Shown here one piece after another: positions 11,453-46,351 of a stretch of DNA of 58,415 nucleotides. Within the stretch, counting starts at the first letter, position 1, and the number at the start of each line of letters is the position of its first letter. A program made the translations under genes and the position numbers. A model generated the notes under the pieces. That model was not told the DNA's origin. It ran no database searches and saw nothing but the letters and a program-made list of their open reading frames with translations. Location: contig CALINO010000080.1 in the NCBI GenBank assembly GCA_938045295.1, positions 1 through 58,415 on the forward strand, in the 5' to 3' direction. The DNA is from an uncultured Arenicella sp. GTDB taxonomy: Bacteria > Pseudomonadota > Gammaproteobacteria > Arenicellales > Arenicellaceae.

Positions 11453-11635
11453 ATGGCTGTACAAAAAAGTAAGAAATCAAACTCTCGACGTGGCATGCGA
11501 CGTTCTCATGATGCAATGGGCGAGCCAACTTTGTCGTCTGATTCAATGACTGGGGAATTGCATCGTCGTCACCAAGTTACTGCTTCAGGTTACTATCGTG
11601 GCAAAAAAGTTGTAAACGTTAAGTCAGAAAGTTAA
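11453..11635 (+). CDS. rpmF: 50S ribosomal protein L32
   Basis: The 60-residue protein [20 protein letters not shown]... is L32, without the zinc-binding cysteines seen in some species. In most gammaproteobacteria yceD (DUF177) precedes rpmF; the 272 bases upstream here contain no yceD. An intrinsic terminator follows, so plsX probably has its own promoter or depends on read-through. Confidence 0.97.
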
Positions 11636-32476: not shown

Positions 32477-34174
32477 ATGACTATAAATAAAAAAACACTC
32501 AGACAAGTGCTTGTTGTGGCGTTCTTAAGCGCTACCGTTTCCCCTTACTCTGCAAATGCACAAGGCGATAACGAAGCACCACAAGTCGACAGGGCTGATA
32601 AAGTTTCTTTGAGTGTTGAAAAAGAATTGAGCCAACAACTTGATGAACTCAGTCAATCGATTATTGAAAAGAGAAAGGAGTTACAAAAGCTCAAATCAAA
32701 AAGCCCTAAGACTGGTACGAATCCAGATTTAGACAGTGAAATTGATGTAACAACTCAACAGTTAGAAGTATTAAATAAAAGCTTTGAACAGCTGGCGGTC
32801 GGTTATATTGACTTAGAAATTAATTCAAAAGATGAACCAGAACTTACTTGGCAAGAAGAATTAACCTTAGCAATTAAACCTTTATTGGAAAACCTCCGGG
32901 GGCTGACGGAAGAGCCTCGAAAAAAAGAAAATCTACGTCAAATAATTGCATCGCAAGAAGCAACATTGTCTCGATCTGAGAAAGCCTTGCTTTCGATAGA
33001 AAAGTTGATCGAGAACAACCCATCAACAAACCAAAAACGGATTCTTCAGTCAGTTCAGAGTAAATGGCAACGTATAAAAGAAAACGCAGAAAGTGAAAAA
33101 CAACTTGCGGTTTTTCAGCTTGAAAGCCTATCAAACTCAGACAGTAATTGGTTGGTCGATTTAAAAAAATCAACCGTTGCCTTCTTTCAAGACAGAGGAG
33201 TAACCATCGCGTTGGCGGTGCTTGTATCGATTGCTATTTGGGCTGTACTGACTGGATTTCATAAGCTCATAGATCGAGTAAGTAGCGCAAAAATAAAACA
33301 CCAACGCCGCACAACTTACCGCATTGTTGCCTATGCTCGACGACTATTAACCGTTGCGCTGATTGTTATTGGTATCTTGACCGTTTTCTTCGTCCGCGGC
33401 GACATACTGTTACTTATCATTACGTTGGCATTACTTTTCGCTGGTGCTCTTGGGCTAAAAAGCTTTCTTCCTCAATTTGTTGCTGAGAGTAGATTGCTAT
33501 TAAATATTGGCAGCGTTAGAGAGCAAGAACAAGTTGTGATCGATGGTGTGCCATGGCGAGTTGCCACCATCAATATTTTTTCCAAATTGACCAACCCCTA
33601 TATTCAAGGTGTGTTGAGACTTCCAATGTCTGATATCAAAGAAATGGTATCTAGACCCGTTAAGGAAGAGAAATGGTTCCCAAGTTCTATCGGTGACTGG
33701 GTGGTGGATAATGACGATAATTTGTACGAAGTCATTCGTCAAACCCCCGTTGTGGTCGAACTGCAAAGCGCACAGGGCACCAACAAGCTTGTACCCACAC
33801 CAACCTATTTTTCATCGGGCGTTGTCAATCTCACGAAGTCGAAACGAATAAGAATTACCAGCACATTCGGCGTTGGATACGAACTACAGAAAAAGTGTTT
33901 AACTGACGTTCCTTTGGTTCTAAAAGAAGTAGTCTCGGAGTTTTTGCTTGCGGCGTCTCTGGATACGGACCGAATAGATGTTCGGGTTGAGTTCGCTAAC
34001 GCGGGCGAGTCGTCGCTTGACTATATTATAATCGCGCATATCGATTCTATTGCATCAAAACACTATTACCGAATAAAGCGTGTTATTCAACAGGCATGCG
34101 TAGAAGCATGTAACCGCAATGATTGGGGAATTCCGTTCCCGCAATTAACCGTGCACCATTTGCCAGCTGAGTAA
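32477..34174 (+). CDS. MscS-like mechanosensitive channel with periplasmic coiled coil
   Basis: The 565-residue protein has a signal peptide (ending NAQG), a long coiled coil (about residues 45-230), then transmembrane helices at about 235-330. The MscS pore helix and beta-domain follow (FAGALGLKSFLPQFVAESRLLLNIG, then VIDGVPWRVATINIF, RLPMSDI, MVSRP), corresponding to the Gly-rich TM3, beta-domain and PNxxI region of MscS. The pore sequence is divergent. The gene is a paralogue of the one at 42731-44473. It should release osmolytes under membrane tension. Confidence 0.82.
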   Translation: MTINKKTLRQVLVVAFLSATVSPYSANAQGDNEAPQVDRADKVSLSVEKELSQQLDELSQSIIEKRKELQKLKSKSPKTGTNPDLDSEIDVTTQQLEVLNKSFEQLAVGYIDLEINSKDEPELTWQEELTLAIKPLLENLRGLTEEPRKKENLRQIIASQEATLSRSEKALLSIEKLIENNPSTNQKRILQSVQSKWQRIKENAESEKQLAVFQLESLSNSDSNWLVDLKKSTVAFFQDRGVTIALAVLVSIAIWAVLTGFHKLIDRVSSAKIKHQRRTTYRIVAYARRLLTVALIVIGILTVFFVRGDILLLIITLALLFAGALGLKSFLPQFVAESRLLLNIGSVREQEQVVIDGVPWRVATINIFSKLTNPYIQGVLRLPMSDIKEMVSRPVKEEKWFPSSIGDWVVDNDDNLYEVIRQTPVVVELQSAQGTNKLVPTPTYFSSGVVNLTKSKRIRITSTFGVGYELQKKCLTDVPLVLKEVVSEFLLAASLDTDRIDVRVEFANAGESSLDYIIIAHIDSIASKHYYRIKRVIQQACVEACNRNDWGIPFPQLTVHHLPAE

Positions 34175-36361: not shown

Positions 36362-36979
36362 CTAAAAATTATATTGTTGCGGAACTTTTTGTGCGTAGTT
36401 TTTACTCACAAAGTTCCAGTTAACGACGTTCCAAAAGTTTTCTAAATATTGTTTTCTACATTCGTGATAATCAATGTAGTAAGCATGCTCCCAAACATCG
36501 ATATTCAGTAATGGAAATGTATTTACATCTAATATTGGTGTGGTGATTACGTTTGTATTGATAATAACTAATTTGCCACTGGCCTCTTTAAGTAACCACG
36601 TCCAACCGGAACCATGACTAGACAGTGCAGACGCTTTAAATAATTTCTTGAATTCATCAAAACTACCAAAATTGCTCTCTATCGCCTTTAATAAATCAGG
36701 GTTAGGCAAGATGGGTTGGTTGCAAGACTTAGGTTTAAGGCATTTCCAAAAAAAGTTGTGATTCCAAATTTCTGCTGCATGAAGAAATAACTCGCCTTCC
36801 GATGTCTTTACAATTTCAGTTAAATTTTTATCGGAAAAAACAGTGTTATCAATTAATTCATTTAACCTATCATATTGTTGTTTCTGTAATTTACCGTGAT
36901 GCAACATCAGGTTCTGACTTGACAGGAATGGTTGCATTTCATCGTACCGGTACGGCAATTTACTTTGCTCGATAGACAT
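36362..36979 (-). CDS. sodB: Superoxide dismutase (Fe/Mn type), divergent
   Basis: A 205-residue SOD. Metal ligands are readable: His in LMLHHGK, His in WNHNFFW, Asp and His in DVWEHAYYIDY. Typical SodB also has HHxxY after HGK; here HGKLQKQQYD is altered. It lacks the usual fold-tight N-terminal motif EFHHGKHH. It scavenges superoxide in the cytosol. The metal (Fe or Mn) cannot be settled by eye. Confidence 0.85.
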   Translation of the reverse strand: MSIEQSKLPYRYDEMQPFLSSQNLMLHHGKLQKQQYDRLNELIDNTVFSDKNLTEIVKTSEGELFLHAAEIWNHNFFWKCLKPKSCNQPILPNPDLLKAIESNFGSFDEFKKLFKASALSSHGSGWTWLLKEASGKLVIINTNVITTPILDVNTFPLLNIDVWEHAYYIDYHECRKQYLENFWNVVNWNFVSKNYAQKVPQQYNF

Positions 36980-37615: not shown

Positions 37616-37647
37616 AATTGGTAGGCGCTCAACGTTGCCTACCAATT
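37616..37647 (-). terminator. Inverted repeat downstream of dps, possible attenuator
   Basis: AATTGGTAGGC (37616-37626) pairs with GCCTACCAATT (37637-37647), an 11-bp perfect stem. No strong T-run follows leftward, so read-through into the DUF502 gene is possible. Confidence 0.5.
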
Positions 37648-37679
37648 TAAAGGTGCTTATCCAATTTAAAGGTGCTTAT
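37642..37679. repeat. Perfect 19-bp tandem duplication at the 3' end of dps
   Basis: CCAATTTAAAGGTGCTTAT occurs twice in direct tandem (37642-37660 and 37661-37679). The second copy carries the dps stop codon. This is a recent slip or duplication event; the protein is unaffected. Confidence 0.9.
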
Positions 37680-38182
37680 TCAGCGATCAGCGACCTTAAC
37701 ATCCAGGCGTTTTCTTCATGCTGACCTATTCGTTCAGTCAGTAGGTCAGCTGTCTTTACATCATCGTGGGCTTCAGCCAATTTGACTACATCACGTATTT
37801 TTCGGCTAAGCGTTTCATTGTCGTTAACCAATACCTGTATCATTTCAACAGCGTTGGTGTAGTCAATATTGCTATCGATATAAGAAAGTTCAGACATTGT
37901 GCGCAAGCCGGCTGGCGCTTTAAACCCAAGAGCACGAATTCGTTCAGCGAGTTCGTCAATTGAATCGGCTAAATCCACATACTGCTCTTCGGTTAGCTTG
38001 TGAACACTGTAAAACATTGGTCCGACAACATTCCAATGCACGCCTTGAGTCTCAGAATAAAGTGCATAGCTGGTGGCCAAGATTAAGCCAAGTTGCTCAC
38101 TCAACTCCAAACGCTCATCACGCTCTATACCAGACTTGGTTGTTGTTTCTTTTAATGCAGCATTAATGTTGGGGGTTGTCAT
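37676..38182 (-). CDS. dps: Dps-family DNA-protection ferritin
   Basis: A 168-residue Dps with the ferroxidase helix GVHWNVVGPMFYSVHKLTEEQYVDLADSIDELAERI. I start at the ATG at 38182, where GGAG lies 6 bases upstream, not at an earlier in-frame start. Dps oxidises iron with peroxide and packs DNA in starving cells. It follows the DUF1328 gene within the sigma-54-linked csbD set. Confidence 0.9.
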   Translation of the reverse strand: MTTPNINAALKETTTKSGIERDERLELSEQLGLILATSYALYSETQGVHWNVVGPMFYSVHKLTEEQYVDLADSIDELAERIRALGFKAPAGLRTMSELSYIDSNIDYTNAVEMIQVLVNDNETLSRKIRDVVKLAEAHDDVKTADLLTERIGQHEENAWMLRSLIAE

Positions 38183-38224: not shown

Positions 38225-38389
38225 TTACAGTTTGTTTTTTTTGCCTGTGATGAACAAAAAAATTGCAAAAATAATGCCAACCACAAACAGTCCGTATGCA
38301 ATTGACGATGCAGTACCAGCAATGCCTGAAAGACCAAGAGCGCCGGCGATGATAGCGATAATTAAGAAAATAAGTGCCCAATTAAACAT
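38225..38389 (-). CDS. DUF1328 (YtjA-like) small membrane protein
   Basis: A 54-residue protein, [22 protein letters not shown]..., ending [10 protein letters not shown]. It has two hydrophobic helices and the GLSGIAGTA hairpin typical of DUF1328. A GGAGG site precedes the ATG at 38389. Such proteins are often induced with csbD and dps in stress. It lies in the leftward unit driven by the csbD promoter. Confidence 0.88.
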
Positions 38390-38439: not shown

Positions 38440-38640
38440 TTAAGAAATTTCTTTCAAAAATTCATCGATTCGTTCTTCAGCTTCTTCTTTAGTAATGCCG
38501 TATTTTTCTTGAACGACACCAGACAGTGAATCAATATCACCTTCTACTTGCATTAGCTCGTCGTCGGTCAACTCACCAAATTTAGACTTAAGATTGCCTT
38601 TAAGTTGCTTCCAGTTACCTTTAAGAATTTCTAAGTTCAT
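38440..38640 (-). CDS. CsbD-family stress protein
   Basis: A 66-residue CsbD protein beginning MNLEILKGNWKQLKGNLKSKFG. The short start at 38640 has GGAG 8 bases upstream; a longer frame adds 13 unlikely residues. CsbD proteins are general-stress markers of unknown mechanism. A sigma-54-type promoter lies 73-89 bases upstream, so this is likely the first gene of a leftward operon. Confidence 0.9.
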   Translation of the reverse strand: MNLEILKGNWKQLKGNLKSKFGELTDDELMQVEGDIDSLSGVVQEKYGITKEEAEERIDEFLKEIS

Positions 38641-38712: not shown

Positions 38713-38729
38713 AGCAGATACCGTGCCAA
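38713..38729 (-). promoter_or_regulatory. Sigma-54 (-24/-12) promoter for csbD
   Basis: The minus strand reads TTGGCACGGTATCTGCT. It has GG at -24 and GC at -12 with the required spacing (first G to first G 12 bases). It differs from consensus TTGGCACGNNNNTTGCT at one position. The predicted start is near 38702, giving a leader of about 60 bases. Confidence 0.8.
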
Positions 38730-38876
38730 CTCTTTCATTTTTGGATTGAAAAGAACATAAGATATTGTTTTATAAATATTTTTATTTTATCTTTTCAGTT
38801 TACTAAATCCTTTCTAACGTCACTCACAATCTGCATTTGGGCAAAACCCACGCCGTTTGTGGATAACCCCCAATTC

Positions 38877-38884
38877 ATTGGTGG
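38877..38884. promoter_or_regulatory. Possible activator site shared with the mscS-cti promoter
   Basis: ATTGGTGG here is the core of CCACCAATG on the minus strand. The same nine bases are at 44860-44868. Both are about 150 bases upstream of a -24 element, as expected for an enhancer site. Only two occurrences were noticed, so it is weak. Confidence 0.25.
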
Positions 38885-38955
38885 TAAGCAACCAGTATTT
38901 GAAATAGTTAAAAAGAAATTCGCCCTCACGCATTTGTTTAAGCCAATTTAAAACT

Positions 38956-38972
38956 TTGGCACGATGTTTGCT
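38956..38972 (+). promoter_or_regulatory. Sigma-54 (-24/-12) promoter for the yqjD-like operon
   Basis: The + strand reads TTGGCACGATGTTTGCT, an exact match to consensus TTGGCACGNNNNTTGCT. It faces away from the csbD promoter, leaving 226 bases of shared upstream DNA. The predicted start is near 38983 and the leader about 118 bases. Confidence 0.85.
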
Positions 38973-39101
38973 GATACTTAATCGAGAGCTAACATTAATT
39001 GCATGACCGTTCAAAAAATTAATTTATTTAACGTAGCGGCAACTCTCAAACATCAATATTTTTAACTTAACTAATTAACTTAACTAAATAGGAGAATAAT
39101 T

Positions 39102-39374
39102 TTGAGTAAACGAAACACCAACATTAAAGACGTAGCTGAGAAAGCACACAATGTAGTAGACAAAGCGGCAAGCGCAGCTGAAAAAGCAGAGCTAAAGGCA
39201 AGCCAAGCTTCTAACCAGGTGAAAGAGCGCGCTGAAGAAGCAATAGATTCAGTAAAAGAGGCTTCTGGTAATGCTCAGGATAAGGTGGTTTCTTATGTAA
39301 ATGAAAACCCGCTCAAATCGATCGGTATCGCCTTTGGCGCAGGTATCGTTGCCGCTGCGCTGCTACGAAAGTAA
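39102..39374 (+). CDS. DUF883/YqjD-ElaB-type membrane-anchored protein
   Basis: The 90-residue protein starts at a TTG (39102) behind AGGAG. It has an Ala/Lys/Glu-rich amphipathic helix (residues ~10-65) and a C-terminal helix ending in GIVAAALLRK, the anchor layout of YqjD/ElaB. In E. coli such proteins tether ribosomes to the membrane in stationary phase. It is the first gene after a consensus sigma-54 promoter. Confidence 0.85.
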   Translation: MSKRNTNIKDVAEKAHNVVDKAASAAEKAELKASQASNQVKERAEEAIDSVKEASGNAQDKVVSYVNENPLKSIGIAFGAGIVAAALLRK

Positions 39375-39425
39375 ACCACACACGTCTGACACGACTATCC
39401 AACCACAATTGTTTAGGTGACACAC

Positions 39426-39800
39426 TTGAGTGAAGACAAAAACATGACTGAAGATCAATCTGTCGATTTTTCATTTTTGCAACATACGAATGAAGCATAC
39501 AAATATGCTGTCGGTTACGCTTCGGCCTTGGTGACGCTTGTCGTCGCCGAGGCCAAACTCGCCTTAGCTAATATTATTTTAGTGGCAATGCTTTCCATTA
39601 TCGCCATTATATTAATTTGCTCGACATGGGCTTTAACCTGCTTTGCCGCTGCCTCTTGGTTAATTGCCATAGCAGGCCTGAGCACTTGGGCAGCAAGTTT
39701 GTGTGTCGCCTTGATGAACCTATTATTGCTTTTACCAACAACCTATATTGCCTTAAGCTTACTGAGAAGCATAAAAATTGAGGGAATATCAAATAATTAG
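39426..39800 (+). CDS. YqjE-like (holin superfamily-type) membrane protein
   Basis: The product (about 124 residues) has two pairs of membrane helices, near residues 30-70 and 75-115. Its place after the YqjD-like gene suggests the YqjE role. The start is probably the TTG at 39426 with AGGTGA five bases upstream; GTG at 39417 and ATG at 39444 are alternatives. Function unknown beyond membrane integration. Confidence 0.7.
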   Translation: MSEDKNMTEDQSVDFSFLQHTNEAYKYAVGYASALVTLVVAEAKLALANIILVAMLSIIAIILICSTWALTCFAAASWLIAIAGLSTWAASLCVALMNLLLLLPTTYIALSLLRSIKIEGISNN

Positions 39801-39835
39801 GGCAATTATAAACACAAAAAAAATCATCGACTATT

Positions 39836-40309
39836 ATGAAAATTTTTGAACTAAGAAACGAAATACGTGAAAGCCGGCAAAGAGCAGAGAGCGAACGCAC
39901 TGCGTTGCGAGACAGCATGGTTAGAGCTAAGCAAGCCTTGCATGAAAACGCAACATCGGGCACGACACTCGCCTCTTCTTTTGCGGCAGGTGCGATTACT
40001 GGTTGGCTAACAATGGGGGCTACTAAAAAGCAAACCATGAAAAATCCACCACCACAAAGCGTTAAAACCGACTCCAATAATGCTGACCCGATAAACGCCG
40101 AAAACATAAACGTTGAGGTTAAAAGCAATTCGTTTTTGTCTGATTTTTTTTCTCAAACTCAAGCCATGGTATTAAGCCTACTAGCCGCAGAAGCCAGCCG
40201 AGTGACTAGTGACTTTTTGAAAGACACGGATTTATCTGGTGCAACTAACAACAGTCGTGCTGAAGCCAGCCATAATCCTGGATCAGCTGGTCAAGAAATC
40301 AGCAAATAA
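39836..40309 (+). CDS. Third gene of the YqjD/YqjE module (unknown)
   Basis: A 157-residue protein. Its N-terminus (MKIFELRNEIRESRQRAESERTAL) is a basic helix, then a Gly/Ala-rich hydrophobic stretch (SSFAAGAITGWLTMG), then a low-complexity linker and a second weak hydrophobic segment. Its position matches yqjK of E. coli, but I see no clear sequence match. Confidence 0.55.
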   Translation: MKIFELRNEIRESRQRAESERTALRDSMVRAKQALHENATSGTTLASSFAAGAITGWLTMGATKKQTMKNPPPQSVKTDSNNADPINAENINVEVKSNSFLSDFFSQTQAMVLSLLAAEASRVTSDFLKDTDLSGATNNSRAEASHNPGSAGQEISK

Positions 40310-40365
40310 AAGGACAGTTAGTTTTGCTAGAAAAAGGTTTCGAGCCATAAATAAGATGCTTTGCT

Positions 40366-42756
40366 TTAGTGGTTTTCCAGCTTATTTAAATCTAAAACAC
40401 CATAATCAATATTACTGAATTTTTTAAAACCATGATCGAATCGGTCAAACACGGCCCAAAAATTCGGATCAGTCCGGTGTAAACCGTAAACGTCAAACAG
40501 TAATCGGTAGTCTTCATCCGTTTCCAGGCTTTGTAACTGTCGGCTAAAATCGCTGATTTGACTAATATCAAGTGTCATAAACGCATTGGGCCTGGGCCCA
40601 ACCATGCCAGGCAATACTGTCAAGCTGGTTTCATCGGGTTCGATGGTAAGCGTTTCAAATAAAATGGATGTGTTGTTCAAATGTCCCCGATTCTTAAGCA
40701 TTGTAAGGTAATACTGTTGACCCTCAGCTTCAATTTCTATCATCGTCACTTCTGGCAAATAATCAAAAGACGCGCTTTGTAGGGCCTGTAATTGCAAGAA
40801 TATGTTGATCATATCTTTGGGGTATTGGTATGCCGGATTGGTTATATCGAAACGTGATGAAACAACCGCTGATAACTGTTTTTCAATTTCATTTAATAAT
40901 TGGTCTTTTGCTTTATGACTTGCGATGTTTGTACGTTCTTCAATCGCCGGTTCTAATGCTTGGTTTAAATCGGTTAAGCTCAAAAAGTTTTCGATTCGAC
41001 TGTCCGCTCCACGATACCAATGCTTACGAAGATCAATACGTTGTTTATGGGGCAACATAAGCAAGAAGAGTGACTCCCCTTCCATGCGTAAGAAATCCAT
41101 GTAAATTCGAGACAATAAGTTGTGACTAATGTTGCCATACACATCGTAACCGGCCACTAAGAGATAGTGAATTCTCTCAAGTAGCGGATAATCGATGACC
41201 CAAACTGTTTTGGGTTTTGCACCGGAAAGCCCTTTGTGTACAGTCGCATTATCAAAATGTCGATATATCGTCAGAGCAGCATTACTATTCGTGCCGTCGC
41301 CATCCCATAAGACATTGATATTAAAAGCCCCTTCGTCATTGACGTTACGTTTAAGAAACTCACGGCGTTGTTTTAAGAACGCCTGCTCTTTGTCGGCAAA
41401 TTCATCCCATGAATCAAATAGGTCTAGCGTGTCTTCTTTCTCTGCAGGTAAATCTAAATTATTTTGCGCCAAAGTTAGAAACGCATTCATCTCAGGGCCT
41501 GATTGATATTCAGGGTCGATAAAAAACACCCAAAATTGCTCGTTAATAACATTAACCGCCGATTGCCCTTTACAAACAGGACCTTTTATAAATCCCTTAA
41601 CCGTATAATTGGCTTCGTCCAACATAAAGCGATAACGTGACTCAGCGGGTAATTCTTGAAAAGTGATGAACGGGTTTGATGCAGTTTTTATGTCGTAGCT
41701 CGGTAAGGTGGTCACATCAAAATCGGCTTGATAAAACCACTGCTGCCATTTATCAAACTTTGCCTCGTCTAGACGATATGGCATGTGTGTTTTAGCCACC
41801 GTTGTTTCTTTATTTAGACGAAGTCGGTAATAGACTTTGTCTACTCCTGGGTGATCAAATGGGCGACGTGTGGCGATGACATCAACAGGTTCGCCAACAT
41901 TAGTAGAAGACCGAACCAGTTGAAAGTATCGACCAGGCTCACCATTACCAAAATAGAGACTGGCAAGGAATAAGTGCTCATAAATATATCTTGCTATTAA
42001 CTGTGATTTTACAGTTGGTTGGTTGAGCAATGTTTCCCATTGATTAATTAACTTTTTCTCCTTCGGAGTTAAACTGTAGTCAGTGTCATCATTAGCTCCT
42101 TGTTTTACCCAATCAGATAATAAATTTGCCTGTTCTTCATTTAAAGAAGGCAAGGCATAAGGCATGCCTTGTTGAGGATAATCATGGGCATAATTCATAA
42201 ACTCTGAGTGATTACTCGCACACTGCCACTCTTGACTGTCATCAATAGGGACTTCGTAAGCGTCACCAGAGCGGATTGGCGCCTCTTTTGCCTTTAATTC
42301 AAGCATACCGAGTAAGGATGAAAAGCGTTGTGCTTGGCTAGAAGAGTCGCTTGCTGCCGGAGAATTCAATATTGAGTCAAACCCTTGTTCTCGCCATTGG
42401 CTTTCGCTCTTAGCGTCGAAAAACAAACGACTTAATTTGCCCTCTTTCAGGCTTTTATGTTGATAAACCCGTTGCTTGGTCGTGCCTCTCTCAATTCCCG
42501 CATGGGCGGTTAACTTGACCTGACAAGGTGCATCATAACAAGCATGACAGGCAACACAGCGTGAATCGAATATGGGTTTTACCTGATTTTCAAAGCTGAT
42601 AGCGGTCTTATTGATGGGCGCGTCTACCTCAATAAGACCAAGTTGGCGATCTTGTTCATCAGGGGATGAGCAAGCGGACAACATCAAGGCTAGAACAACA
42701 AGAATTGTATGTTGTTGTTTTAGAATTACGTTAACTATTGCTTTTTTTAATATCAT
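40366..42756 (-). CDS. cti: Fatty acid cis/trans isomerase
   Basis: A 796-residue protein with a signal and lipobox (LMLSAC, Cys29). A haem c-type motif CVACH (Cys67, Cys70) sits in DSRCVACHACYDAPCQVKL. Cti converts cis to trans unsaturated phospholipid acyl chains in the periplasm, stiffening the membrane under solvent or heat stress. The start at 42756 has GGAGA five bases upstream; longer frames to 42858 lack support. It overlaps the mscS gene by 26 bases, so the two are coupled behind one sigma-54 promoter. Confidence 0.92.
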   Translation of the reverse strand: MILKKAIVNVILKQQHTILVVLALMLSACSSPDEQDRQLGLIEVDAPINKTAISFENQVKPIFDSRCVACHACYDAPCQVKLTAHAGIERGTTKQRVYQHKSLKEGKLSRLFFDAKSESQWREQGFDSILNSPAASDSSSQAQRFSSLLGMLELKAKEAPIRSGDAYEVPIDDSQEWQCASNHSEFMNYAHDYPQQGMPYALPSLNEEQANLLSDWVKQGANDDTDYSLTPKEKKLINQWETLLNQPTVKSQLIARYIYEHLFLASLYFGNGEPGRYFQLVRSSTNVGEPVDVIATRRPFDHPGVDKVYYRLRLNKETTVAKTHMPYRLDEAKFDKWQQWFYQADFDVTTLPSYDIKTASNPFITFQELPAESRYRFMLDEANYTVKGFIKGPVCKGQSAVNVINEQFWVFFIDPEYQSGPEMNAFLTLAQNNLDLPAEKEDTLDLFDSWDEFADKEQAFLKQRREFLKRNVNDEGAFNINVLWDGDGTNSNAALTIYRHFDNATVHKGLSGAKPKTVWVIDYPLLERIHYLLVAGYDVYGNISHNLLSRIYMDFLRMEGESLFLLMLPHKQRIDLRKHWYRGADSRIENFLSLTDLNQALEPAIEERTNIASHKAKDQLLNEIEKQLSAVVSSRFDITNPAYQYPKDMINIFLQLQALQSASFDYLPEVTMIEIEAEGQQYYLTMLKNRGHLNNTSILFETLTIEPDETSLTVLPGMVGPRPNAFMTLDISQISDFSRQLQSLETDEDYRLLFDVYGLHRTDPNFWAVFDRFDHGFKKFSNIDYGVLDLNKLENH

Positions 42757-44473
42757 CGAATTCTCCAGCTTTGTCATCACTAACGTTAGCCTGATGCACT
42801 GTGAGTTGCGGAAAGGGTATTCCCCAACCGTGTTCATTACATACCATAACGCAAGCACGTTGAATTCGGCGTTTTATTTTATTGTAATATTGCGCGGCCT
42901 GCGTATCGAATTTGGCCAACATTAAATAATTTAATGAAGAGTCACCTGCAGAATGAAAATCGGCGTCGATAGCTATGACATGAGGCTCAATTTCTGTGTC
43001 TTTAAATGAAACCTCTATTCCCTCTTTGAAAGCATTTTCGATAACGCTTGGAGACACCGTCTGAGTGGCGTAATCGATCCCAAATGACACACTTATGCGA
43101 AAAGCGTCTGCGCGGCTTATATTTGGGAACCCACGCTCATAATATTCAGCTGTCGGCATTGTATAAGAAATAGAGTTCAAATCTCGCAGCTCAACCACAT
43201 CAATAGTTTGCTTTATAACTTGCTCAGGATTTCCATCCTCACCTAAGACCCAATCACCTTCCGAACTGGGGAACCACGGCTCATTGTTATAAGGCCGTGA
43301 GATCATGTCATGCATGTGGCTAATTGGAATGCGAATGCTGCCTTGTATCTCAGGATTAACAAACCTAGAGTTCACATTAATTGAATTAACTTTCCATGGT
43401 ATGCCGTTGTAAACAATTCTTTCTCGTTCACGAATACCGCCTACATTAAGTAAAATACGCCCTTCGGTTATATATTTTGGTAGTAGATTTTTTAACGCCA
43501 GCGCAAGCCCTATAAACACCACCACCATAACAGCCAGCAGCAATAAATCTTGACGAAAATACAAGACCAACATAACCGCTACTGCGATTAATATACCAGT
43601 AAGTAAACGGTAACCATACGCCGCCAATCGATAACGAGTTTTAACGCTGTTGCCTGAACTTTGTTTTGTGCGCTTTCGAATTAGCCACAAAAAAGTTTTC
43701 ATTAAACCCAGTACTGCGAACGCGGCCGCAAATGAAAATACTAATGTGAGCCCTCTACCAGACGCAAAGTCAGACAGGTTTTGTTTTAAAATCTCCATCC
43801 ATGAAATGTCTTTACCTTCAAGGCTATCTAACTGATAACTTGCCAGCTGGATTTCTCGTTCTAAATCTACTCGTCTATTCTCCCAGTCTTGTTGCACAGC
43901 AGCCAATTTCTGGCTCACTGTTTTCGAGTCAGCTTCGTTTAATAATTGTTTAACCGAACTAATGGCTTCTAACGAAGCTTGCAGAGCTGCCTCTTTATCA
44001 GAAATCACACGGCGGAGGTTCTCAATTTTTCTTGGCTTTTCAGTTAAACTTTTAACATTTTCGATAAGTGGTTTAACAATAGTAAGTAATTCCTCCCGCC
44101 AATTGAACTTACCTTCTTCCACTCCAAATACGGATAAATCAATACCTCCGATAGCAATTTGTTCAAAGGTTTTTTCTAATAACTCTATGTCTATTGCTAA
44201 GCTCTCTAACTCCGCTTTCAGCTGTTCTTGTTGTGCTTCAGAGCTTTGTTTAAGTTTTAGCCTTAGCGACCTCCTCTCTGAAATTTTAGCATCAAGCGAA
44301 GATTGAATATCACGCAACTGTTCAACAGCTTCAACATTTAGCTCATCTTTAAGCGACTGTTGAGTTGAATTGACGGCCGTAATCTCTTTACTGCTTTGCT
44401 CATCAGCAAAGACTGGGCAAGGAATAAAAGTAACAATTAAAACAGCTAAGAAAGAGTGAAAAATGTATTTCAT
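42731..44473 (-). CDS. MscS-like channel with periplasmic coiled coil (paralogue)
   Basis: A 580-residue paralogue of 32477-34174, same layout: signal peptide, coiled coil (about residues 35-215), membrane helices, MscS domain (GLALALKNLLPKYITEGRILLNVGG, IVYNGIPWKVNSINV, RIPISHMHDMISRP), and the shared C-terminal ending CNEHGWGIPFPQLTVH. It is the first gene of the mscS-cti unit. A tension-gated channel paired with a lipid isomerase is a coherent membrane-stress operon. Confidence 0.83.
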   Translation of the reverse strand: MKYIFHSFLAVLIVTFIPCPVFADEQSSKEITAVNSTQQSLKDELNVEAVEQLRDIQSSLDAKISERRSLRLKLKQSSEAQQEQLKAELESLAIDIELLEKTFEQIAIGGIDLSVFGVEEGKFNWREELLTIVKPLIENVKSLTEKPRKIENLRRVISDKEAALQASLEAISSVKQLLNEADSKTVSQKLAAVQQDWENRRVDLEREIQLASYQLDSLEGKDISWMEILKQNLSDFASGRGLTLVFSFAAAFAVLGLMKTFLWLIRKRTKQSSGNSVKTRYRLAAYGYRLLTGILIAVAVMLVLYFRQDLLLLAVMVVVFIGLALALKNLLPKYITEGRILLNVGGIRERERIVYNGIPWKVNSINVNSRFVNPEIQGSIRIPISHMHDMISRPYNNEPWFPSSEGDWVLGEDGNPEQVIKQTIDVVELRDLNSISYTMPTAEYYERGFPNISRADAFRISVSFGIDYATQTVSPSVIENAFKEGIEVSFKDTEIEPHVIAIDADFHSAGDSSLNYLMLAKFDTQAAQYYNKIKRRIQRACVMVCNEHGWGIPFPQLTVHQANVSDDKAGEFDDIKKSNS

Positions 44474-44686
44474 AATAGTTTTGATCTAAAGCTCTGTGAT
44501 TGGGTGAGTTACAAAATAAAACCGTTTATTGAATATCTGCGAAAGCATCAAAAAACGATGACACTGCGTTGGAAAACTCACAGGGTGGAATACCGTTGAG
44601 TCAATAAACAACCGAAGTATGTTATCCAGAGTGATTAACAGTTTTGATGGATTTCGTATAAAAGTAGGCATAGTCACTTTTTTAAA

Positions 44687-44703
44687 AGCAATACGCATGC
44701 CAA
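44687..44703 (-). promoter_or_regulatory. Sigma-54 (-24/-12) promoter for mscS-cti
   Basis: The minus strand reads TTGGCATGCGTATTGCT, with GG and GC at the correct 12-base spacing and one mismatch from consensus (ACG to ATG). The predicted start is near 44676, about 200 bases before the gene. Confidence 0.8.
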
Positions 44704-44847
44704 CTACACAGAGAGAACGGAGTTGATTTTTTATGATTAAAAATCAATAACTTAAAAATTAAATCGAATGCAATTTCGTGTAGTCGGTATCTTTTGATAT
44801 CGAATCGTTATTGAGTCGGTGAAAAATATTGGGGGATTTAAACTGCC

Positions 44848-44869
44848 ACTGGTTGAGAACCACCAATGG
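44848..44869. promoter_or_regulatory. Candidate enhancer site upstream of the mscS-cti promoter
   Basis: The sequence CACTGGTTGAGAACCACCAATG holds the inverted repeat TGGTT-GAG-AACCA and the nonamer CCACCAATG shared with 38876-38884. It is about 150 bases upstream of the -24 element. Confidence 0.3.
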
Positions 44870-44893: not shown

Positions 44894-46351
44894 TTAGGTG
44901 CCAATATCTAATTCGTACTTTTGAATTCTGTAGCGTAAGGTTTCTCTGGTAGCTCCCAGTAATTCAGCCGCTCTAGTAATGTTGTTTTGTGACACATCTA
45001 AAGCGCATTCAATGATTTTTCGATCCATTTCCTCTAATGAAATCGACCCATCAATTTCAAAGCTCACCACATTAGATTTTACAATTTGCAGTTGTGTGAT
45101 GTTGTCATCAAGCGCTGGCTCATCTGATACTGTTTGCTCATCGCCGCTCTCGATATCAGTTAGCTGCTCTTCAAGCAAGGTGTTGTTAAGTTTTAACCAA
45201 CAGGAATTGAGTGTTTCATTTTTCGATAGCAATACCGCACGCTCTAATGCATTTCTGAGCTCACGCACATTACCCGGCCAGTCGTAATCCATTAGATCAG
45301 CCCAAGCGTCATCAGGTATTATTCGAACGTTTTTACCGGCTTGAGAGTTAAAATCGGCAATAATTGCTGGCACCAATTCCAGCAAATCAGATTTATATTC
45401 ACGCAACGCAGGTACGGTTATTTCAAATACATTGAGGCGGTGATACAGATCTTCTCTGAACTCACCGTCAACGACCATTTGCTGAAGGTCTCGATTGCTG
45501 GCAGCAAACACTTGTACATCAACTTCAATTTCATGCTCACCACCAACTCGCCTAAAGCTCTGTTCTTCTATCGCTTTAAGTAATTTAGCTTGAACGTCTA
45601 ATGGCATTTCGCCAATTTCATCCAAAAACAAAGTGCCGCAATCAGCTTGTTCTAACAAACCACGGTGCCGCCCTTTTGCCCCAGTGAATGCTCCCGATTC
45701 ATGACCAAAAAGCTGCGATTCAACCAGCTCTTGTGGAAGCGCCGCACAATTCATTTCAATAAACGAGTATTCTTGTCGAAGTCCATTACTATGCAGGATG
45801 CCTGCAGCATGACCCTTACCAGTCCCTGTTTCACCCTTGATCATCAACGTGCTCATTGGCACCTTTGATAGCTCTTCAAGCACACGCCTGTGTTCAACAA
45901 TAACGTCACTGTGCCCAACAATAGATTCAAAGCTACTTCGTTGAAGATTGGATGATGAATACTGAGCTAAACGCCGCCGCACAATAGTAGAACGGACAGC
46001 TTTCTTGACCGCAATTTCAATCCGCTTGTACGAACATGGTTGCCGTAAACTGCGATAACTCAATTCCTCAAGTCTTTCAGAGAGGCTTTGCTCTAAATCA
46101 TAAGTTAAAAATACCCATTCATGTATGCCCAGTGACTCTTCAATGCTCTCAAGCATGTCCATTTGAGTTTCACTGATTTCGGGTATATCAACTAATATCG
46201 CACTCGGTTTTACCCCATGATCATCTATGTGTTGTATTGCTGAGCTGACGTCTTCGGTGTTGCGCAAATTATAGTGTAAGGATTTAAAGTGCGACACCAA
46301 GCCCTCATTGTCAGAATCAGGGTTTTGTATCAATAATAAGGTTGCGGCCAT
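44894..46351 (-). CDS. Sigma-54-dependent activator with a degenerate receiver
   Basis: A 485-residue enhancer-binding protein. The N-terminal domain (1-130) is receiver-like but degenerate: no acidic pair (LLLIQNPDSDN) and no switch lysine (RQPCSYKRI); the phospho-acceptor Asp (ILVDIPE) remains. The AAA+ domain has Walker A GETGTGKGHA, the sigma-54-contact loop GAFTGAKG and Walker B TLFLDEIG. The C-terminal Fis-type HTH ends RAAELLGATRETLRYRIQKYEL. No histidine kinase lies nearby. Likely activator of the three sigma-54 promoters here. Confidence 0.9.
   Translation of the reverse strand: MAATLLLIQNPDSDNEGLVSHFKSLHYNLRNTEDVSSAIQHIDDHGVKPSAILVDIPEISETQMDMLESIEESLGIHEWVFLTYDLEQSLSERLEELSYRSLRQPCSYKRIEIAVKKAVRSTIVRRRLAQYSSSNLQRSSFESIVGHSDVIVEHRRVLEELSKVPMSTLMIKGETGTGKGHAAGILHSNGLRQEYSFIEMNCAALPQELVESQLFGHESGAFTGAKGRHRGLLEQADCGTLFLDEIGEMPLDVQAKLLKAIEEQSFRRVGGEHEIEVDVQVFAASNRDLQQMVVDGEFREDLYHRLNVFEITVPALREYKSDLLELVPAIIADFNSQAGKNVRIIPDDAWADLMDYDWPGNVRELRNALERAVLLSKNETLNSCWLKLNNTLLEEQLTDIESGDEQTVSDEPALDDNITQLQIVKSNVVSFEIDGSISLEEMDRKIIECALDVSQNNITRAAELLGATRETLRYRIQKYELDIGT

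Follow-up and report, generated by a model that had tools for sequence, protein, structure and literature searches.

Enhancer-binding proteins (EBPs), the activators of sigma-54 RNA polymerase, generally act as dimers and hexamers, are ATPases and reach their promoters by DNA looping. Here, we analyze a stretch of 58,415 nucleotides (the window), contig C80 of the 92-contig genome (G000; 2,994,915 bases, 99.4% complete) of an uncultured Arenicella sp., which encodes an EBP with no kinase gene beside it, close to candidate sigma-54 promoters of csbD, a yqjD-like gene and mscS-cti. A close described system is the acid response of Sinorhizobium. PMC9048898 cites Tian et al. 2017 for a role of RpoN and a novel EBP in acid-activated expression in Ensifer (Sinorhizobium), and describes LpiA as a lysyl-phosphatidylglycerol synthase, a membrane-lipid enzyme. 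From its position beside lpiA, the Sinorhizobium medicae EBP would be the one studied by Tian et al. 2017. It is 40% identical to the window's EBP over 99% of the latter, falls in the same clade, and lpiA carries the same operator motif. However, its receiver pocket looks intact and it adjoins tcsA (annotated as a histidine kinase), whereas the Arenicella protein has no adjacent kinase, belongs to a set of genus orthologues that have lost the pocket (5 of 5) and is associated with a different gene set.

PspF, which lacks an N-terminal regulatory domain, is a second relevant case: it too has no receiver that could be phosphorylated, and it acts in membrane stress via sigma-54. It differs in its target operon, and the window's EBP falls under the cut-off of the NCBIfam PspF equivalog model (253.9 vs 443.55 bits), as it does under that of NtrC (301.8 vs 558.6 bits). 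PMC3162934 lists PspF as an instance of sigma-54 control of membrane stress, and argues that sigma-54 controls the cell exterior. A third case, NmpR of Myxococcus xanthus, is an NtrC-like EBP acting on tandem palindromes, in a text that also mentions universal stress proteins; according to the same text (PMC11841059), it differs in its site, GCGCA-N5-TGCGC, in a spacing of mostly 14-15 bp and in belonging to a phosphorelay. In Planctomycetia, genes for MscS and UspA are predicted to be enriched among sigma-54 targets (PMC12316311).

In literature that leaves subscription journals mostly outside, the matches listed for csbD, yqjD and cti included no title on sigma-54 control in Gammaproteobacteria, and none reported the combination of orphan EBP, operator and gene set that we describe. 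An earlier model-made interpretation of the window, drawn from its letters without database searches (the sequence-only reading), had called sigma-54 control of such stress genes unusual. The genes are indeed better known under other sigma factors, but because precedents exist, such control is less exceptional than was held. RpoS, SigB and EcfG are sigma-70-family factors, whereas csbD and its companions here have sigma-54 promoters. CsbD or DUF1328 is mentioned in papers on RpoS (PMC5437024), SigB (PMC2248587) and EcfG (PMC7083833), YqjD also appears in papers on such regulons, and a further paper (PMC10782981) mentions both rpoN and csbD.

Promoter elements and a shared operator

From the sequence evidence, we consider it highly probable that the kinase-less EBP is the direct activator of three or more units: csbD-DUF1328-dps (possibly extending to sod), yqjD-yqjE-orf3 and mscS-cti. 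The three -24/-12 elements lie upstream of these units, where the sequence-only reading had placed them, its intervals being one base too long:

38713 to 38728, minus strand: sigma-54 -24/-12 element of csbD, TGGCACGGTATCTGCT (consensus match, weighted score, kept in all 6 genes from 5 genomes, including this one)
38957 to 38972, plus strand: sigma-54 -24/-12 element of yqjD, TGGCACGATGTTTGCT (consensus match, weighted score, kept in each of the 4 genomes that have a close yqjD)
44687 to 44702, minus strand: sigma-54 -24/-12 element of mscS-cti, TGGCATGCGTATTGCT (consensus match, weighted score, conserved in 5 of 5 genomes)

They show one, no and one mismatch to TGGCACRNNNNTTGCW, respectively. 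Scored with a weighted matrix based on the published consensus, they reach 19.7, 17.7 and 17.6, the highest values in the 58-kb window. Across 300 random windows with the window's dinucleotide make-up, sites of at least 17.5 averaged 0.12 per window and three or more never occurred together (0 of 300), while a site scoring 19.7 or better was found in 10 of the 300. Plain consensus matching at up to two mismatches gave no significant excess in the window (14 found vs 22.4 expected), and this counting was dropped in favor of the weighted matrix and conservation. The next sigma-54 score, 16.7 at 11512 (11512-11527), lies antisense within a 60-aa open reading frame (ORF) read as rpmF and is probably a chance match.

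Conservation in relatives had been named beforehand as one of the checks able to refute the proposal, and the elements were found to be kept at csbD (6/6), yqjD (4/4) and mscS (5/5). Their twelve core bases are identical across orthologues at fractions of 0.97, 0.92 and 0.89 for the three elements, whereas the 4-base spacer reaches 0.33-0.46 and the 60 bp upstream 0.31-0.35. The genome of G006, which is 82% complete, yielded no yqjD.

Motif discovery on 14 promoter regions of five genomes, with the window's csbD and yqjD counted as one shared region, returned a palindrome, TGGKGGATATCCMCCA, present in two copies in every region. These upstream activating sequences (UAS) are spaced 20-24 bp from start to start, and the third-best site in the regions scores at most 10.0 bits. 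The window holds two such pairs:

38857 to 38872, no strand: UAS 1, TTGTGGATAACCCCCA, common to csbD and yqjD (motif discovery; held-out pair score 35.3)
38879 to 38894, no strand: UAS 2, TGGTGGTAAGCAACCA, common to csbD and yqjD (motif discovery; held-out scan)
44830 to 44845, no strand: promoter-proximal, weaker UAS copy of mscS-cti (motif discovery; held-out pair score 26.9)
44850 to 44865, no strand: distal UAS copy of mscS-cti, TGGTGGTTCTCAACCA on the minus strand (motif discovery; held-out scan)

In relatives, the proximal copy starts at -122 to -146 from the -24 element of csbD, -133 to -151 from that of mscS and -88 to -90 from that of yqjD. The pair between csbD and yqjD (38857-38894) stands at -144 and -78, which roughly fits the distances of both genes, and the second pair (44830-44865) at -143 from the mscS element. 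Since a matrix scored on its own training genomes would be circular, it was retrained leaving out each genome in turn. Trained on the relatives only, it ranks the two window pairs first, at 35.3 and 26.9 bits, ahead of a next pair at 14.2; 200 random windows gave at most 21.4, and unrelated loci totaling 1.11 Mb at most 20.5. For each of the four relatives, too, the highest-scoring pairs (23.1-36.3) were those at the known promoters.

A sequence model of the tandem site, built on spacer-padded rows after a MAFFT alignment of the raw sites proved out of register, gave 28 matches in the five genus genomes that carry the EBP vs five in the 13 that do not; scoring covered 150 candidates in each genome, out of as many as 700, and these counts are thus incomplete in both directions. 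The 28 comprise 13 training sites, five repeat matches at the same places and ten new ones. Eight of the ten were examined, and six have a correctly oriented sigma-54 site 66-171 bp away, as against one of the five matches in genomes lacking the EBP. The six correspond to four distinct loci (two pairs are orthologous): a fumarase C-type lyase beside uspA (G006, G015), an AI-2E-type permease in G005, a 247-aa protein of G006 that no Pfam model matches, and an unscanned gene (G015, G006). At the first of these (L192 and L179, about 1394-1541), the tandem UAS and the sigma-54 element lie between the lyase gene and uspA, with the element pointing to the lyase gene. A uspA orthologue was not found in the window's own genome at E 1e-10.

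EBP orthologues were searched for in 145 relatives; the genus sample comprises 18 genomes, own included. Four of the 17 other genus genomes (G005, G006, G008 and G015) hold one, at 67-76% identity, while the remaining genus matches, at about 1e-62 to 1e-67, are at the level of the genome's own NtrC. csbD occurs in 5 of the 18, the same five that carry the EBP. CTI is found in these five plus G007, and yqjD in four of the five, with a weak match in G012. The linkage of the EBP to mscS is kept in all five.

In the mechanism that we propose, EBP dimers would bind the tandem palindromes, which lie upstream of the -24 elements at a distance of some 60-165 bp, and the single UAS pair between csbD and yqjD would serve both divergent promoters. 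DNA-bound hexamers would then use their GAFTGA loop to touch RNA polymerase-sigma-54 and hydrolyze ATP to open the promoter. Phosphorylation is probably not the input; likelier candidates are the amount of EBP, a ligand or a protein partner.

The activator, its receiver and its family

The GAFTGA activator without a kinase named by the sequence-only reading is recovered in full:

44894 to 46351, minus strand: orphan sigma-54 activator (EBP), 485 aa, with a degenerate receiver, AAA+ domain with GAFTGA and Fis-type helix-turn-helix (Pfam, pocket comparison)

Pfam recognizes the sigma-54 AAA+ domain (PF00158, 206.8 bits), the lid and a Fis-type helix-turn-helix (PF02954). The loop at residues 220-225 reads GAFTGA in this protein and that of G008, and GSFTGA in G005, G006 and G015. 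The recognition helix, TRETLRYRIQKY in the window's EBP, is nearly constant in the family, and RpoN (PF04552) is encoded on another contig of the genome. No kinase is found among the EBP's neighboring ORFs, as judged by reading them and by Pfam on the upstream exchanger, a statement that covers these neighbors and neither the rest of the window nor a genome-wide search for a relative of the family kinase. The genes beside the EBP orthologues of the genus relatives likewise included none that was read as a kinase. In G005, a Crp/Fnr-type gene lies just upstream of the EBP, and likewise in G006 as judged by the sequence start; it is one possible input.

In all five genus EBPs, the acidic pair of the receiver pocket is replaced (Q/H plus N/D/Q) and the lysine is changed to Q/A, while Asp55 is kept. 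Structure prediction models the N-terminal domain as a receiver (pLDDT 61, which is moderate, from 2 rows), and the nearest solved structures are receiver domains or contain one; the domain thus probably retains the receiver fold. The lost pocket and the missing adjacent kinase together suggest that activation is probably not by phosphorylation. An alternative, which concerns this activation step only, is that the EBP continues to work as a normal two-component regulator whose Asp55 is phosphorylated by a kinase encoded elsewhere. The invariance of Asp55 across seven aligned sequences and the predicted receiver fold would fit such a regulator, but the replacement of the acidic pair and lysine in 5 of 5 genus orthologues does not, and neither does the comparison with distant homologues that follows; we regard it as improbable.

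At a threshold of 1e-80, 20 of 369 genomes of the class match the EBP: the window's own, G005, G015 and 17 more distant ones, whose homologues are 44-53% identical in the aligned segment. A kinase lies directly upstream in 14 of these 17 (one with a HisKA domain only) and was not seen at G246, G303 and G354, using Pfam and NCBIfam on the upstream ORFs; a pattern-based kinase test that had returned 5 of 17 was too strict and was replaced by this one. The pocket residues E-D-D-T-K are kept in 14 of 15 readable distant homologues, and the degenerate one, G246, also has no upstream kinase. A two-component type activator linked to a kinase therefore appears, from these sequences, to have turned into a kinase-free, one-component switch in the genus branch. 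The receiver change may have happened a second time in G246, or be shared with it. At its locus (L240:7960-9826), tandem sites with a spacing of 22 bp come after the degenerate EBP, along with a sigma-54 element and a small gene.

A maximum-likelihood tree, midpoint-rooted and leaving out two truncated homologues (G286 and G354), splits 21 family rows from NtrC, NtrX and 16 other EBPs with support of 100/100. Within the family, the window's EBP groups with G246 at 92/86, which is below the 95/80 mark. The 16 outgroup EBPs are full-length proteins from a search of genome contigs for related loci, of which the best 80 were kept; one of them (L034) is a close EBP orthologue (68%), and the remaining 79 served as controls.

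The motif trained on the genus extends to this family. In the 17 family loci (269 kb), there are 44 matches of at least 13 bits, 18 of them beside a sigma-54 site, against a random expectation with a mean of 0.92 and a maximum of 4 in 50 trials; such linked UAS occur in 11 of the 17 loci. Among the 79 control loci (1.11 Mb), which encode other EBPs, there are 14 motif matches, none beside a sigma-54 site. Genes beside the family sites include those for cytochrome bd subunits, a DegP-like protease, a transaldolase and a SulP transporter. In a plasmid collection, the sole matches at 1e-80 are 13 records of S. medicae, 40-41% identical; in one annotated record, the EBP adjoins lpiA-fsrR-tcrA-tcsA, and lpiA has a sigma-54 site (15.5) together with a UAS pair (15.9 and 13.0) at a spacing of 22 bp. 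On pSymA, both lpiA and a DUF1003 gene (L253:3127-3231 and L253:10390-10505) have a sigma-54 site and the tandem motif 21-22 bp apart. The EBP is encoded between these two genes, which makes them a ready prediction of its targets.

The genome has three strong EBP matches: the window's EBP, one read as NtrC (by NtrB and glnA, on another contig) and one read as NtrX (by NtrY), the last without GAFTGA. It could be argued that the three sigma-54 promoters are real but belong to nitrogen control, with NtrC as their activator: NtrC is the only other strong GAFTGA EBP in the genome, and further strong sigma-54 sites are found at genes whose sequences read as glnA, glnK-amtB and, apparently, nitrate genes. 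However, the nitrogen loci examined (L032, L166, L167 and L168) have no tandem UAS pair or one of at most 14.6 bits, the tandem UAS is present at orphan-EBP family loci in other families, and csbD tracks the orphan EBP within the genus, which makes NtrC control very unlikely. That the elements are sigma-54-like by chance and the genes are under sigma-70-type promoters is hardly credible: plain matching to the consensus shows no excess in the window, but conservation in relatives, the tandem UAS and the weighted-score null speak against chance, the RpoS-model matches in the genome are only RpoD- and RpoH-sized, and sigma-70-like sites are at background (23 found vs 31.4 expected).

Concerning RpoS itself, none of the 18 genus genomes passes the cut-off of the NCBIfam model (378.7), and seven match it at 329-373 bits, which we call RpoS-like. 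The window's own genome, at 99.4% completeness, has no RpoS-like match, only two of 282 and 149.5 bits that we take for RpoD and RpoH by score and length. G008 likewise has none, and G005, G006 and G015 hold both an RpoS-like factor and the EBP; the sigma-54 system is therefore not simply a replacement for RpoS.

Gene units of the window and its relatives

The genes assigned to the three units are as follows:

38440 to 38640, minus strand: csbD (PF05532)
38225 to 38389, minus strand: DUF1328 small membrane protein (PF07043)
37676 to 38182, minus strand: dps-like ferritin (PF00210)
36362 to 36979, minus strand: superoxide dismutase, possible member of the csbD unit (BLAST matches in or beside the csbD units of 4 relatives)
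39102 to 39374, plus strand: yqjD-like gene, DUF883 C-terminus (PF19029)
39417 to 39800, plus strand: yqjE-like membrane protein (after yqjD in 3 relatives; no Pfam or NCBIfam match)
39836 to 40309, plus strand: unnamed third gene of the yqjD unit (weakly similar gene after yqjE in 3 relatives; unmatched in Pfam and NCBIfam)
42731 to 44473, minus strand: MscS-type channel (family profile matches YnaI, E about 1e-4)
40366 to 42756, minus strand: cti, cis-trans fatty acid isomerase, start inferred (PF06934, 793 bits)

Most of the gene names given by the sequence-only reading are borne out at the Pfam cut-off, namely CsbD, DUF1328, DUF502, CTI, yqjD (DUF883 C-terminus), Dps (ferritin-like) and pldA (PLA1). 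The superoxide dismutase is identified only through relatives, one of whose sod genes, a BLAST match of the window's, fits Fe/Mn superoxide dismutase models; no Pfam model matched the MscS-like protein. In G005, G006 and G015, the csbD unit comprises csbD, dps, sod and a DUF2254 gene (read from the sequence start; the G015 copy is confirmed). Divergent from csbD in G015, G006 and G008, a sigma-54 element (L162:15584-15599, L172:5285-5300 and L170:2439-2454) faces a group of genes with a putative amidoligase among them; in G005, the copies of these genes are confirmed as amidoligase and glutamine amidotransferase families, and no sigma-54 element is seen there.

A 139-aa gene without a Pfam match lies between the promoter and mscS in all four relatives and is missing from the window (tblastn, no match better than E 3.3); its absence would explain the long mscS leader. 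A second MscS-like gene at 32477-34174 is 36% identical to that at 42731-44473, with no sigma-54 score of 9 or more upstream of it. In the interval between dps and DUF502, an inverted repeat and, as seen by eye, a short direct repeat, AATTTAAAGGTGCTTAT, are present at 37617-37680 and could end or attenuate the csbD transcript.

Weighing the regulon and its meaning

A sigma-54 regulon with an adjacent activator, as first proposed from the sequence, is supported by the tandem UAS, by phyletic co-occurrence and by the motif at EBP-family loci elsewhere. Several observations weigh against it. At mscS, the half-site CAGTTTAAATCCCCCA is poor, the elements of relatives score only 14.0-16.0, and the G015 promoter, the fourteenth training site, is missed by the sequence model. 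One of the five model matches in genomes lacking the EBP is also near a sigma-54-like site, where random placement would give 1.3%, and the genome has four further weak sigma-54-AAA matches (24.8-33.4 bits). The chance of the EBP-csbD co-occurrence, 1.2e-4, assumes independent genomes and is uncorrected for phylogeny. At six of the 17 family loci, a UAS beside a sigma-54 site is missing. csbD is present in 4 of the 17 distant genomes carrying the EBP, and none of the five csbD loci there has both UAS and sigma-54 upstream; the csbD link is therefore lineage-specific, and ancestral control of csbD is unsupported. Finally, DUF502, sodB and pldA may belong to the csbD transcript, but the 94-bp gap before DUF502 holds a hairpin with an 11-bp stem (z only -2.0), which makes read-through into DUF502 and sod uncertain; a terminator scan lists nothing in this gap between dps and DUF502.

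As for the label "membrane-stress regulon", the sigma-54 wiring holds up at the level of sequence, while the membrane-stress role is inferred from the gene set only, which would point to envelope or general stress as the inducing condition. A broader and doubtful proposal is that, in this genome with no recognizable RpoS, an EBP that shed its kinase and disarmed its receiver is the master of a sigma-54 general stress response covering csbD, dps, yqjD, mscS, cti and perhaps sod, with uspA/fumC in relatives. In three of the four relatives carrying the EBP, such a response would act alongside an RpoS-like factor. If true, this would be a stress response without sigma-S, built on a sigma factor that is silent until activated. 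Apart from that proposal, the sequence by itself links an orphan activator to a defined operator and set of genes, and offers a natural case of apparent sigma-54 control over genes better known from other stress sigma factors. The motif further yields predictions elsewhere, for cytochrome bd genes and a DegP-like protease in other Gammaproteobacteria and for lpiA of Sinorhizobium medicae.

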